From Bacillota bacterium (lineage in GTDB: Bacteria; Bacillota; Clostridia; Caldicoprobacterales; DTU083), in assembly GCA_029549985.1 (NCBI GenBank), contig JAKPIB010000015.1:1-64000 (forward strand): DNA of 64,000 bases, written 5' to 3'. Under the pieces are notes generated by a model that was not told where the DNA came from, searched no databases, and saw only the letters and a list, made by a program, of their open reading frames with translations. Shown one piece after another: positions 38,760 to 43,270 of this stretch. Each line of letters begins with the position of its first letter. The stretch's first letter is position 1. A program made the translations under genes and the position numbers.

Positions 38760-38987
38760 CTAGATCAGGTATTCCTTGATATCCTCCAGGAAGTCATCGC
38801 AGTCATCGCTGTAGATCTCAACAATTATGGGCTTGCTGAGGTCAAGGCTGAATATACCGAGGATCGATTTTGCATCGACAACATGTCTGCCGGATCTCAG
38901 GTCTATTTCGTATGGATACTTGTTGACGATATTGACAAAGCTCTTTACATTTTCGGCGAGGGACAGCTTAATGCTTACGGTCTTCAT
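38760..38987 (-). CDS. HPr-like protein lacking the active-site histidine
   Basis: 75 residues with the HPr fold pattern. The DAKSILGIFSLDL block (residues 38-50) is the conserved regulatory region, S41 corresponding to Ser46 of HPr, target of HPr kinase. The N-terminal GLHARPA motif is replaced (around LAENVKS, residues 10-16) and no histidine is there, so it cannot carry PTS phosphate. This is comparable to Crh, which retains Ser46 but lacks His15 and works as a catabolite co-regulator. ATG follows AGGAGG on the minus strand; own promoter at 39023-39051. Confidence 0.8.
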   Translation of the reverse strand: MKTVSIKLSLAENVKSFVNIVNKYPYEIDLRSGRHVVDAKSILGIFSLDLSKPIIVEIYSDDCDDFLEDIKEYLI

Positions 38988-39051: not shown

Positions 39052-39181
39052 TACCTTATCTATTTAACTTCATTACTAGTACTTTGCGCAAAATAGTATA
39101 AATTTCATTATACTAATGCTGCAAATGGCAATAATAACAGAATGAGGTTTCACAAAGACCTTGTTCAATGGGAGGTATATT

Positions 39182-40183
39182 TTGAAGATAGGTATACCAA
39201 GAGCGCTGTTATGGAGCATTTATCTTCCTCTATGGAAAGCCTTTTTCAACGAGCTGGGGCATGAAGTTGTCCTCTCTCCGCCGACCAACAAGAAGATACT
39301 GAATGACGGGGTAACGGCCTGTGTGGATGACGCATGTCTGCCGGTAAAAATCATGCACGGGCATGTCATTGATCTGATGGACAGGGCAGACCTTATTTTC
39401 ATCCCCAGGCTTATCAGCATTTGCCCTAGAGAGTATATCTGCCCCAAATTCATTGGCCTGCCGGAGATGATCAGAAACTCCGTAGCGGGCGGGCCGAAGC
39501 TGCTGGTCCTGGATTTCAATGCACATAAAAGCATCAGGCACGGCTATGATGGCTTTATTGCAATCGGCAGGCAGCTGGGTGCACGGGAGAGCGCTGTCAG
39601 GAGGGCACTTGCCAGAGCGATGAAGGCCCAGGATGAATATACAGCCAGGCTGCTTGGGGGCTCAAATCCGTTGATGTTGCTCGAAGGCATGGCCCTGCAT
39701 GCAGGCATCGGGGGTAATAAAGGGACGATCGGGTTGATAGGGCATCCGTATTTGCTGTATGACAGGTTTGTCAGCATGGATGCCTGCAGGAAGCTTGCCC
39801 AAATGGGATATCGGCTGATCTTCCCGGAAAACATTCTCCCCGAGCAGATCGAAAGGACTTGCTCAATATATCCAAAAAAGCTTTTCTGGAGCTATGGAAA
39901 GCACCTGCTTGGCAGTGGTCTTGCTATGCTGGAAAAGGGTATGGCAGACGGGATAATTGTGCTGTCAAGCTTTGGCTGCGGCATAGACTCATTCATGGTA
40001 GAGCTGCTGCAGCGGCAGAACCAAAGAGATTTTCGGATACCACTGACAGTCATCACCCTTGATGAGCACAGCGGAAACGCAGGCTTTGATACCCGACTGG
40101 AAGCATTCGTGGACATGCTGGAATGGAGGGATCACAATGGTCATTACTTTTCCCCACATGGGGAGGGTTTATATATCTGTTAA
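39182..40183 (+). CDS. DUF2229 (CoA-enzyme-activase associated) protein A
   Basis: 333 residues from TTG 39182, six bases after GGGAGG; the frame opens earlier at TTG 39161 but that lies before the ribosome site. IGIPRALLWSIYLPLWKAFF at the start and CVDDACLPVK (C47, C52) are hallmarks of the DUF2229 module related to the HgdB/FldBC-type subunits of 2-hydroxyacyl-CoA dehydratases. In many Clostridia this module is fused behind two activase domains in a protein of about 1400 residues; here it is free-standing. A CPREYICPKF stretch may supply more cluster ligands. Its 3' end overlaps the next gene by 47 bases. Confidence 0.82.
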   Translation: MKIGIPRALLWSIYLPLWKAFFNELGHEVVLSPPTNKKILNDGVTACVDDACLPVKIMHGHVIDLMDRADLIFIPRLISICPREYICPKFIGLPEMIRNSVAGGPKLLVLDFNAHKSIRHGYDGFIAIGRQLGARESAVRRALARAMKAQDEYTARLLGGSNPLMLLEGMALHAGIGGNKGTIGLIGHPYLLYDRFVSMDACRKLAQMGYRLIFPENILPEQIERTCSIYPKKLFWSYGKHLLGSGLAMLEKGMADGIIVLSSFGCGIDSFMVELLQRQNQRDFRIPLTVITLDEHSGNAGFDTRLEAFVDMLEWRDHNGHYFSPHGEGLYIC

Positions 40184-41222
40184 AGCGCTTTTTGATGATT
40201 TGAACGTAAAGCTCGTAGTTCCTCCGCCGGTGAGCAAGAATACCCTGGAGCTCGGTACCAGGCTTGCTCCTGAGATGGCCTGCCTGCCTCTTAAAATAAA
40301 TATCGGGAATTATATCGAAAGCATAAAACGGGGGGCTGATACTATCATCCTGACAGGCAGCTGTGGCCCCTGCAGGTTTGGATACTACGGCGTCGTTCAA
40401 AAGGAGATCCTGAAAGACCTGGGCTATGATGTAAACATCGTTATCCTGGACGCCCCGAATACAGGGTTCAAGGCGTTTATCGACAAAATACGCATGATAA
40501 GCGGATATAGCTCCCTGTCAAGTCTTATGAGAGCATTCAGGGCTGCATTCAAGGTCACTGTCGAAGTCGATGAGCTTATGGATATCGTGTTGAGAAAAAG
40601 GCCAAGAGAAAAGCACAAGGGCGAGACAGACAGGCTTCTCAGCAGGTTTGAACATGATGTTCTGAAGGTGCACGGAAGCACCGAAACACTCGAACTAGTG
40701 GCCATATATAAGGATAAGATCTCAGTCATAGCGGAAGATGAAAAGGCCGACCCTGTACGTATAGGTCTAGTCGGGGAGATCTATACCCTTATAGAGCCTT
40801 ATGTCAACCTCAATGTCGAAAAGAAGCTGGGAAGCCTTGGAGTTGAGGTGCATCGGGGCATCACGCTCACAGACTGGATAAAGACCCATCTTTCGATGGA
40901 TATGAAGTACAAGCGGGCCAGAAGGAATGCATTGGACAAGGCAAAACCGTACCTGGGCCGCTGCATCGGCGGTCATGCATGGGAGACAATAGCGGCCACT
41001 GTAGGTTTCAATGAAAAAGGCATGGACGGAGTGATACAGATCCTGCCCTTTGGATGCATGCCTGAAATCGTGGCTGAGAGCATAATACCGACCATATCCA
41101 GGGACCTGAGCCTGCCCGCGATGACTGTCACCGTGGACGAGCTGACCGGAGAAGCTGGCTACATGACCAGACTGGAGGCCTTTGTTGACCTATTATCACA
41201 AAAGAAAGGAATGGTATCATGA
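40137..41222 (+). CDS. DUF2229/HgdB-like protein B
   Basis: 361 residues from ATG 40137, six bases behind GGAGGG; a longer frame to 40059 lacks such a site and would overlap more. Shares the design of the preceding protein: MACLPLK (C49) and GSCGPCRFGYY (C76, C79), cysteines that in related proteins hold a [4Fe-4S] or double-cubane cluster. Late GGHAWETIAATVGF and PFGCMPEIVAESI also fit. It likely pairs with protein A as a reductase or dehydratase-like component receiving electrons from the activase whose gene overlaps by four bases (ATGA). Confidence 0.82.
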   Translation: MVITFPHMGRVYISVKALFDDLNVKLVVPPPVSKNTLELGTRLAPEMACLPLKINIGNYIESIKRGADTIILTGSCGPCRFGYYGVVQKEILKDLGYDVNIVILDAPNTGFKAFIDKIRMISGYSSLSSLMRAFRAAFKVTVEVDELMDIVLRKRPREKHKGETDRLLSRFEHDVLKVHGSTETLELVAIYKDKISVIAEDEKADPVRIGLVGEIYTLIEPYVNLNVEKKLGSLGVEVHRGITLTDWIKTHLSMDMKYKRARRNALDKAKPYLGRCIGGHAWETIAATVGFNEKGMDGVIQILPFGCMPEIVAESIIPTISRDLSLPAMTVTVDELTGEAGYMTRLEAFVDLLSQKKGMVS

Positions 41223-42232
41223 CCGGTATAGACTTATATATGGGGATCGATGTGGGTTCGGTCAGCGTCAATATCGTGCTGATCGATGAAAAATACAACC
41301 TGCTGGAGAAGCTCTATCTGCGGACCCAGGGCAGGCCGATCAGGATTTTGAAGGAAGGGCTGGAGGAGATCCACCAAGCCCTGCCTCTGCATTCCAGGAT
41401 CGCAGGCGTCGGGACTACCGGAAGCGGGCGGGAACTGGCCAACGCCATAGTATCTGCGGATGTAGTGAAAAATGAAATAACGGCACACGGGACCGCAGTA
41501 CTGCATTACATACCGGATGCCCAGACCATACTGGAGATCGGCGGCCAGGACAGTAAAATAATCCTGCTTAGAAACGGTGTCGTATCAGATTTTGCTATGA
41601 ACACCGTTTGTGCAGCCGGTACCGGCTCATTTTTGGACCGGCAGGCCGAAAGGCTGGGAGTCCCGATCCAGGAGTTCGGGGCCCTGGCCCTCAGATCCGC
41701 TACCCCTGTTCGGATCGCAGGCCGTTGCGCCGTGTTTGCCGAGTCCGACATGATACACAAGCAACAGATGGGCTGCAGTTGTGAAGATATAATCAAGGGG
41801 CTCTGTGACGCCCTGGTAAGAAACTATCTCAACAATGTGGGGAAGGGCAAGGAGATACTCCCCAGGATCGTGTTTCAGGGCGGAGTCGCCGCCAACGTTG
41901 GTATTGTCAAGGCCTTTGAGGAGGCCCTTGATCAGCCGGTCATAGTCCCTGAGCATTTTGATGTCATGGGCGCGATAGGTGCCGGGATCCTGGCCCACAG
42001 GAAAACCTCACGAACCGGTGACACTCGATTCTGCGGATTCAACTCACTTAGAGGGGATTTTGCGGCCCGGACCTTTGAATGCAAAGGCTGCACAAACCTT
42101 TGTGAGATAGTGGAAATCTTGTCCGATGGCAAATTGAGAGCAAGGTGGGGAGGCCGCTGCGGCAAGTGGTCGGTGGCTGCAGGCGATGAAACCGGAAGCT
42201 TAAGTGTGGCCCAGGGAAGTCCTTCTGCATAG
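41219..42232 (+). CDS. 2-hydroxyacyl-CoA dehydratase activase-type ATPase
   Basis: 337 residues of the BcrAD/BadFG ASKHA ATPase family, which drive electrons to low potential with ATP. GIDVGSVSVNIV near residue 9, GGQDSKII near 107, and the single-cluster ligands C131 (VCAAGTGS) and C170 (GRCAVFAESD), 39 apart as in HgdC. After about residue 275 comes an extra Cys-rich tail (TFECKGCTNLCEI, GGRCGKW) which in the fused relatives links the activase to DUF2229. Thus this looks like a natural three-way split of the large fused protein. ATGA overlap with the preceding gene shows tight coupling. Confidence 0.88.
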   Translation: MTGIDLYMGIDVGSVSVNIVLIDEKYNLLEKLYLRTQGRPIRILKEGLEEIHQALPLHSRIAGVGTTGSGRELANAIVSADVVKNEITAHGTAVLHYIPDAQTILEIGGQDSKIILLRNGVVSDFAMNTVCAAGTGSFLDRQAERLGVPIQEFGALALRSATPVRIAGRCAVFAESDMIHKQQMGCSCEDIIKGLCDALVRNYLNNVGKGKEILPRIVFQGGVAANVGIVKAFEEALDQPVIVPEHFDVMGAIGAGILAHRKTSRTGDTRFCGFNSLRGDFAARTFECKGCTNLCEIVEILSDGKLRARWGGRCGKWSVAAGDETGSLSVAQGSPSA

Positions 42233-42291
42233 AACAGGCAAGGGTATGAGATACTATTTGCAGGTGAAATATCCCATGGGAGGCATACGGC

Positions 42292-42498
42292 ATGGATAAG
42301 AACCGGACCGACAGTCCAGAATACATGGTGAATGCAGCATACGTATGCGATAAATACTGCTCTAAAACAGCAGCACTGACGACCTTCAGCTATGAAAACG
42401 AGGAAACGGACTGCAGGAACTGCTTTCACTGGAATGACAAGCCGTGCTCATTGTATGCTGAGATGAGCAGCAGGGTAAAAGGCGACATGGAATCATGA
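42292..42498 (+). CDS. Small Cys-rich protein 1, unknown
   Basis: 68 residues, five cysteines (C19, C23, C41, C44, C52) in CxxxC, CxxC, C spacing, suggesting a zinc or Fe-S site. GGGAGG at 42278-42283 gives a proper start at ATG 42292, and its last bases overlap the next ATG, so it is a real gene in the activase operon (59 bases after it). I do not recognise the family. Confidence 0.65.
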   Translation: MDKNRTDSPEYMVNAAYVCDKYCSKTAALTTFSYENEETDCRNCFHWNDKPCSLYAEMSSRVKGDMES

Positions 42499-42746
42499 GC
42501 GGTATCTGCCCGGTGTGCAACGGCCTGTACTCTGATGCCAGGGTATGCTATATATGCGGACTGCCCATGGTCCAGTTGGGCAGGCTGGAGGATCTCAGCG
42601 GACCCTATAGCCCGTATATGGCAGAGGACACCTTTCTCTACAACAATTCACCTGACCTGACGGGGGACAACTGCTGCATACATGTTTATAAATGCGAAGT
42701 GTGCGGTAATATTCGGCATGGATCGATCAGACTGATAACCGTATGA
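42495..42746 (+). CDS. Small zinc-ribbon-like protein 2, unknown
   Basis: 83 residues with three CxxC knuckles: ICPVC (C5, C8), VCYIC (C18, C21) and KCEVC (C67, C70), plus C60-C61. The first two resemble a rubredoxin/zinc-ribbon pair. ATGA overlap with small protein 1. Last gene of the activase operon, before the 6S RNA. Could be a metal- or electron-handling accessory; function unknown. Confidence 0.65.
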   Translation: MSGICPVCNGLYSDARVCYICGLPMVQLGRLEDLSGPYSPYMAEDTFLYNNSPDLTGDNCCIHVYKCEVCGNIRHGSIRLITV

Positions 42747-42813: not shown

Positions 42814-42990
42814 AAGCATTTGTCCTGGGATGTGCGTTGATCTATTGTTTTTAACCCACAGAACACATACGGGAATCCGGAGTTTGCATGCTGATATCAG
42901 GCCCCGCCTGAGGGGAAGATTGAGGTATGCAACAGGAATCCCACCTGCTGAGAGGCGGGTATTAAAATCATAGGTGGACGGCATCATGGG
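42814..42990 (+). ncRNA. ssrS: 6S RNA (RNA polymerase-sigma70 regulator)
   Basis: About 177 nt with no coding gene. The two ends pair like the closing stem of 6S RNA: 5' TTGTCCTGGGATG (42820-42832) with 3' GGCATCATGGGATAA (42980-42994 region), the same layout as E. coli 6S, whose ends read CTCTGAGATG and GGCATCTCGGAG. The central region contains short hairpins, for example CAGGC/GCCTG and TTTGCATG/GTATGCAA. A promoter lies directly upstream and a strong terminator directly downstream. 6S RNA mimics an open promoter and sequesters the housekeeping holoenzyme. Exact ends are uncertain. Confidence 0.8.
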
Positions 42991-42991
42991 A

Positions 42992-43026
42992 TAATAAGCC
43001 CTCAATAGAGCGTTGAGGGCTTATTA
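42992..43026. terminator. Terminator of 6S RNA
   Basis: Fourteen-base-pair perfect stem TAATAAGCCCTCAA (42992-43005 with 43013-43026), seven-base loop, works on both strands. Confidence 0.85.
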
Positions 43027-43117: not shown

Positions 43118-43191
43118 TGCGGAATGGTGTAACGGTAGCACATGTGACTCTGACTCACAGTGTCTGGGTTCGAATCCTAGTTCCGCAGCCA
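43118..43191 (+). tRNA. tRNA-Gln (anticodon CTG)
   Basis: 74-nt cloverleaf with encoded CCA. Acceptor TGCGGAA pairs with TTCCGCA; anticodon stem TGTGA/TCACA, loop CTCTGAC, anticodon CTG; T arm CTGGG-TTCGAAT-CCTAG. Confidence 0.95.
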
Positions 43192-43195
43192 TCAT

Positions 43196-43270
43196 GCTCC
43201 CATGGTCAAGTGGTCAAGACACCGCCCTCTCACGGCGGTAACAGGGGTTCGAATCCCCTTGGGAGTGCCA
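43196..43270 (+). tRNA. tRNA-Glu (anticodon CTC)
   Basis: 75-nt cloverleaf with encoded CCA. Acceptor GCTCCCA pairs with TGGGAGT (first pair G-U); anticodon stem CCGCC/GGCGG, loop CTCTCAC, anticodon CTC; T arm AGGGG-TTCGAAT-CCCCT. Four bases after tRNA-Gln. Confidence 0.95.

Follow-up and report, generated by a model that had tools for sequence, protein, structure and literature searches.

What is the role of three overlapping genes for two reductase-like proteins and an activase in a clostridial genome that also encodes a large fused protein built of similar domains? The question is raised by a locus in the 64,000-nucleotide window analysed here (positions 1 to 64,000 of contig JAKPIB010000015.1, assembly GCA_029549985.1, a Bacillota bacterium of the order Caldicoprobacterales), where five plus-strand open reading frames, named A to E, are tightly packed between positions 39182 and 42746. 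A first-pass annotation had taken A, B and C for a natural split of the fused activase-DUF2229 proteins of Clostridia, followed by two small cysteine-rich partners. We favour another answer, with moderate confidence: the trio A, B and C would be one self-contained, ATP-driven, two-component reductase of the benzoyl-CoA reductase/2-hydroxyacyl-CoA dehydratase (BCR/HAD) class, an ancient sister of the ether-lipid enzymes PlsA and Ger.

Gene A (39182..40183, plus strand, 333 amino acids) opens the group with a TTG start, 5' of which a GGGAGG motif stands at 39170-39175, and encodes a DUF2229 reductase subunit, the predicted equivalent of the Red1 domain of PlsA. It overlaps by 47 bases with gene B (40137..41222, plus strand, 361 amino acids), for a reductase subunit equivalent to PlsA Red2 or to PlsR, and B overlaps by 4 bases with gene C (41219..42232, plus strand, 337 amino acids), for a predicted ATP-driven activase with a four-cysteine tail. 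Two DUF2229/HgdB-like genes, one activase and two small cysteine-rich genes after them are what the first-pass annotation had read here, and the coordinates and families agree with it. Among 49 loci of named genomes, most show the same order A-B-C, hence the arrangement is not due to chance. A four-gene variant, A-B-C-B' (L062, L119, L120 and L121), has an extra, divergent B after the activase, and this B' forms a separate branch in the domain tree presented below.

Both reductase subunits score above the 29.4-bit cut-off of PF09989 (DUF2229), A with 174.7 bits (2.7e-51) and B with 44.2 bits (2.3e-11). A search of the PDB with the single B sequence gave no relevant match; family profiles do match DCCP and HadC, in their third cysteine region (E values of 5.8e-5 for A and 0.005 for B). 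AlphaFold2 models, built from 26-row alignments and with a mean predicted local distance difference test score (pLDDT) of 90.8 for A and 89.3 for B, were compared with known structures by Foldseek and VIA-align. The best match of the A model is chain B of BzdNO (Z 15.3, 3.8 Å over 270 residues), and that of the B model is chain B of 2-hydroxyisocaproyl-CoA dehydratase (Z 17.0, 4.1 Å over 305 residues). Indeed, the full-length fold matches of both models are solely subunits of HadBC, DCCP, BzdNO and 3-methylbenzoyl-CoA reductase (Mbd), unrelated folds coming next with Z values of at most 9.3 for A and 10.4 for B and covering about one third of the chain. The models place A and B in the BCR/HAD reductase superfamily, with an HgdB-like fold, and the two are predicted to pair.

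Three cysteines are invariant in each subunit, C52, C87 and C266 in A and C49, C79 and C307 in B, and all are kept in 45 of 45 relatives aligned to the window protein. Three cysteines per subunit are likewise conserved in the four groups of domains used for the tree (72, 72 and 73 of 73 for A, 78/78 for B, 21/21 for fused Red1 and 20/20 for fused Red2). In total, the window proteins contain eight cysteines in A and five in B, and 9 of 45 relatives have fewer than six, for A as for B. According to PMC11971306, the [8Fe-9S] double cubane of BzdNO is held by six cysteines of a single chain, BzdN, and the open-site [4Fe-4S] by three, three-cysteine binding yielding a [4Fe-4S] cluster with a water ligand. 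The double cubane that the first-pass annotation had named as one possibility does not fit these numbers, the published site taking six cysteines in one chain where B has five and A three that are invariant. Since A and B each keep three cysteines, and B has five in all, the better inference is that each would hold one open-site [4Fe-4S], as in HadBC, the cluster type being read from cysteine counts.

The third protein, C, has a gene of its own and one PF01869 domain. It reaches 182.1 bits (1.3e-53) against TIGR00241, above the cut-off of 125.4, and its PDB matches are the activases of solved complexes (MbdQ, 1hux, 4eht and DCCP-R). The cluster cysteines C131 and C170 are kept in 39 of 39 aligned relatives, and the tail cysteines C288, C291, C295 and C314 in 38 of 39, the exception, L033, being masked there. 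The tail motif, C-x2-C-x3-C-x(14-24)-C, is found in 59 of 60 split activases, a larger overlapping set in which L033 is again masked, and in 22 of 22 fused proteins. C is thus a predicted ATP-driven activase with its cluster cysteines, and the C131/C170 site and cysteine-rich tail described at first pass are borne out. Families, folds and cysteine sets together support the ATP-driven low-potential reductase module that had been proposed.

The relationship to the fused proteins has to be drawn differently. The first-pass annotation gave them no known function, whereas the literature knows them as PlsA (plasmalogen synthase) and Ger (glycerol ester reductase), which convert an ester to a vinyl ether or to an alkyl ether, respectively, in lipids (PMC9702350, PMC8788747, PMC13274423). 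The fused proteins of our data set are called PlsA/Ger from domain architecture and these papers, not from alignment to a characterised sequence; for PlsA and Ger, PMC8788747 gives the entries Q8XL48, Q8XL47 and Q835P9. Their domains are ordered activase 1, activase 2, four-cysteine linker, Red1 (DUF2229) and Red2. The trio has in common with PlsA/PlsR and Ger the DUF2229 domain, a second HgdB-like domain, an activase, the four-cysteine linker motif and three cysteines per reductase domain. It does not, however, cover all of the fused domains as had been thought: PlsA/Ger carry two activase domains fused to the reductase chain, whereas the trio has one, in a gene of its own, and its three genes are ordered Red1-Red2-Act. 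Of the two fused activase domains, C aligns better with the second, in a match that extends through the linker and scores 187 to 230 bits in most fused proteins (272 in L079); activase 1, where complete, gives 137 to 154 bits. The identity of C to the PlsA-like protein of its own genome is 32.6%.

This last protein, located on contig C25, contains 991 amino acids with two PF01869 domains and one DUF2229 domain, and is encoded beside a 456-residue partner (L080:4219-8461, minus strand). The pair has the same layout as the two-gene plsA-plsR arrangement known from C. perfringens (PMC12838417, PMC9702350), which suggests that the organism of the window may make plasmalogens. The laboratory strain E. 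coli BL21 makes none (PMC12838417). Both kinds of system are therefore found in one genome, and they are also separated in the domain tree. The tree comprises 192 domains (73 A, 78 B, 21 fused Red1 and 20 fused Red2, with no characterised PlsA among them) and comes from a quick search with support from the Shimodaira-Hasegawa-like approximate likelihood ratio test (SH-aLRT) only, long branches being flagged. It divides A plus Red1 from B plus Red2 with a support of 99 on both sides. Red1 forms a single clade (92), and B and Red2 fall as separate clades (98 with 78 rows, and 95 with 20 rows), so that the trio does not lie inside the PlsA/Ger clade. As placed by this tree, the Red1/Red2 duplication predates the divergence of the trio and fused families, and because their domains stand in separate deep clades the trio is predicted to be an ancient sister family of PlsA/Ger and not a broken fused gene. 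With this separation and the plsA-plsR-like pair in the same genome, the idea of a natural split has to be given up.

In 41 genomes, the own genome and 40 relatives, sorted by open-frame length (G011 being counted from a B-type hit alone), 21 have the trio and a fused protein, 8 the trio only, 7 a fused protein only and 5 neither; the eight trio-only genomes indicate that the trio can do without PlsA. A strong trio-type B (E below 1e-70) is present in 41 of 118 genomes of the class, several of which have two or three copies. Among 12 named genomes chosen because they bear the trio, seven also contain a DUF2229 frame of at least 980 amino acids and five do not, namely Caldicoprobacter oshimai, Candidatus Frackibacter, a Nealsonbacteria bin, an Anaerolinea bin and a Thermincola (T. 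ferriacetica) bin; the Nealsonbacteria trio sits in a genome bin of 0.4 megabases (Mb).

Beyond the families, folds, cysteine sets, gene order and separate ancestry, which are observed, we infer a quaternary structure, cluster types and an electron path. A homodimer of C would hold one [4Fe-4S] between its subunits, with C131 and C170 contributed by each. Reduced C would bind ATP and dock on the A-B heterodimer, and each stroke would deliver a single electron at very low potential. The electron could then pass from C to the [4Fe-4S] of B and on to that of A, or in the reverse order, and the open site of the three-cysteine clusters in A and B would be the place of radical substrate reduction. 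The four-cysteine tail of C may be a metal site, the counterpart of the linker site of PlsA. As for the substrate, our tentative guess, by analogy with PlsA/Ger, is an acyl compound not bound to CoA, for instance a lipid with an ester bond.

A more specific proposal, which we find doubtful, is that the trio is a free-standing ether-lipid enzyme turning esters into vinyl or alkyl ethers, perhaps at another position or in another lipid than PlsA/Ger. PlsA and Ger are indeed the nearest families of known function; furthermore, the sn-2 ether bonds of Thermotoga are called enigmatic (PMC8788747), and the enzyme that converts vinyl to alkyl ethers is still sought (PMC13274423). However, A and B are only about 21-26% identical to the fused domains, which makes a transfer of the lipid substrate weak, no lipid gene is present among the recurrent operon neighbours, and the trio also occurs in the 0.4-Mb Nealsonbacteria bin and in the Anaerolinea bin (ether lipids there were not checked). 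It is rather unlikely that the trio is instead a small-molecule reductase of the DCCP kind, or a generic low-potential donor that re-reduces another metalloenzyme and has no dedicated organic substrate. In favour of this, the best fold matches include DCCP and its reductase, the C-terminal cysteine region of DCCP aligns, and no pathway genes surround the trio. Against it, DCCP is a homodimer in which every monomer carries a double cubane (PMC11971306), whereas the A-B pair is ancient and made of two different subunits, with three invariant cysteines in each, and the six cysteines that a double cubane takes in one BzdN chain exceed the five of B and the three invariant ones of A.

An ordinary 2-hydroxyacyl-CoA dehydratase or benzoyl-CoA reductase of a fermentation or aromatic pathway is very improbable. 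The trio does resemble HadBC and HadI in its heterodimer fold, its three-cysteine clusters and its single activase, which belongs to a common family, and it shares the fold and the heterodimer-plus-activase architecture of BzdNOPQ and MbdNOPQ. Unlike HadI, however, C has an additional cysteine tail, and A matches HGD-D (PF06050) at 24.0 bits, or 25.3 in the genome-wide search, below the curated cut-off of 28.4, and B gives no match. This is the sole HGD-D match in the whole genome (96.7% complete), which thus has none over the cut-off, and no CoA-transferase of PF02515 or PF01144 (families I and III) was found in it, an acyl-CoA ligase route not having been searched. An amino-acid dehydratase role is therefore unlikely, as the first-pass annotation had judged from the locus. 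On the side of the benzoyl-CoA reductases, BzdNOPQ and MbdNOPQ have two activase subunits and a six-cysteine double-cubane subunit, whereas the trio has one activase and no six-cysteine subunit, and C reaches 106.0, 83.7 and 69.2 bits against the corresponding activase models, far under their cut-offs of 578, 312.85 and 380.2.

Several observations also weigh against the self-contained sister reductase that we favour. Besides the low identity of A and B to the fused domains, the A group is unsupported in the tree (SH-aLRT 16), where long branches meet. At least six cysteines are present in 36 of 45 B relatives, yet only three positions are invariant. In Sporomusa (L069-L073) and some others, A and B are found without an adjoining C. 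The surroundings beyond the trio are not conserved across families and name no pathway.

The two small genes that follow do not appear to belong to the core of the enzyme. Gene D (42292..42498, plus strand, 68 amino acids) begins 59 bases after C, with no terminator-like site found between them on the plus strand by pattern match, and overlaps by 4 bases with gene E (42495..42746, plus strand, 83 amino acids). In an alignment of 11 sequences, D has four invariant cysteines (C19, C41, C44 and C52) and an invariant HW after C44; in an alignment of seven, E has seven (C5, C8, C18, C21, C61, C67 and C70). The window D protein matches no Pfam family at an E value of 1, and E gives weak matches to zinc-finger families, its likeness to zinc ribbons being weak. 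That D is a cluster protein of the high-potential iron-sulfur protein type, as had been suspected, is not claimed, as searches with Pfam and PDB profiles gave chance-level matches only. Both genes are judged to be real because 19 of 48 loci (L031-L078) have in-frame relatives after C: 16 have D, 13 have E and 10 have both. These 19 loci all belong to the 24 that are closest to the window (L031-L054), and the 24 farther ones have neither gene there. In the 118 genomes of the class, D-type genes are found in 20 and adjoin the trio in 9, and E-type genes are found in 8 and adjoin it in 3; the trio is present in 17 of the 20 and in all 8, counts that ignore relatedness. Thus the small cysteine-rich proteins noted at first pass hold up as genes and not as fixed partners of the trio. 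From this distribution, D and E would be accessory at most, and in one lineage only. Elsewhere, four-cysteine genes of the D type were read as standing by themselves near housekeeping genes, for example upstream of histidine-synthesis genes with no trio nearby (L146, L147 and L148), and D may be a general small metal-protein family of Clostridia.

Recurrent neighbours, sought as a clue to the pathway, were only HPr, DUF4364 and single-lineage genes, with no lipid, CoA or cofactor pathway among them. The HPr-family gene (38760..38987, minus strand, PF00381 5.8e-07) is a divergent neighbour in the window, and an HPr gene adjoins the trio in 15 loci, on the opposite strand every time; it is a conserved neighbour in near relatives and probably not part of the reductase. 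Its profile match starts at position 19 of the HPr model, so that the phosphorylatable histidine of HPr, at position 15, may be missing. Upstream of A, an inverted repeat (AATAGTATAA and TTATACTAAT, 6 bases apart) was considered as an operator and dropped as probable promoter sequence; in 28 related upstream regions, both half-sites occur in one (L043, overlapping and with another spacing), a single one in 6 and none in 21. A 6S RNA gene (RF00013, 76.3 bits) lies at 42819-42996 on the plus strand, directly 3' of the operon; two tRNA genes come next (43118-43188 and 43196-43267). A minus-strand open reading frame across the 6S gene recurs in related loci, probably by RNA conservation alone.

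Among the papers searched by family name, none is a functional study of the split trio. A 2026 paper calls unclear the role of extra PlsA homologues without an activation domain in Bacillota (PMC13274423). A and B fit the description of these homologues and a link is possible, but with the PlsA-type queries tried none of 45 A and none of 45 B pass the cut-off of the Ger screen in that paper (E 1e-30 and more than 30% identity), which speaks against it. By contrast, C alone passes this cut-off in 32 to 39 of 39 trios (with three-domain fused queries and an assumed database size), so that trios could be mistaken for ether-lipid genes by a screen that does not check domains or coverage. It is quite improbable, in our estimation, that anaerobes have in the trio a third, so far unrecognised class of ATP-driven ether-lipid enzyme, independent of PlsA and acting for instance in sn-2 ester reduction or vinyl-ether saturation; if true, it would account for some of the ether lipids of Bacillota that still lack an explanation. 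Taken as a family, the trio is a real, conserved and probably complete ATP-driven reductase, uncharacterised and present in about one third of the sampled Clostridia genomes, often beside PlsA and sometimes without it. As its reductase subunits usually have the activase as the next gene, the complete three-gene enzyme can be expressed and tested.

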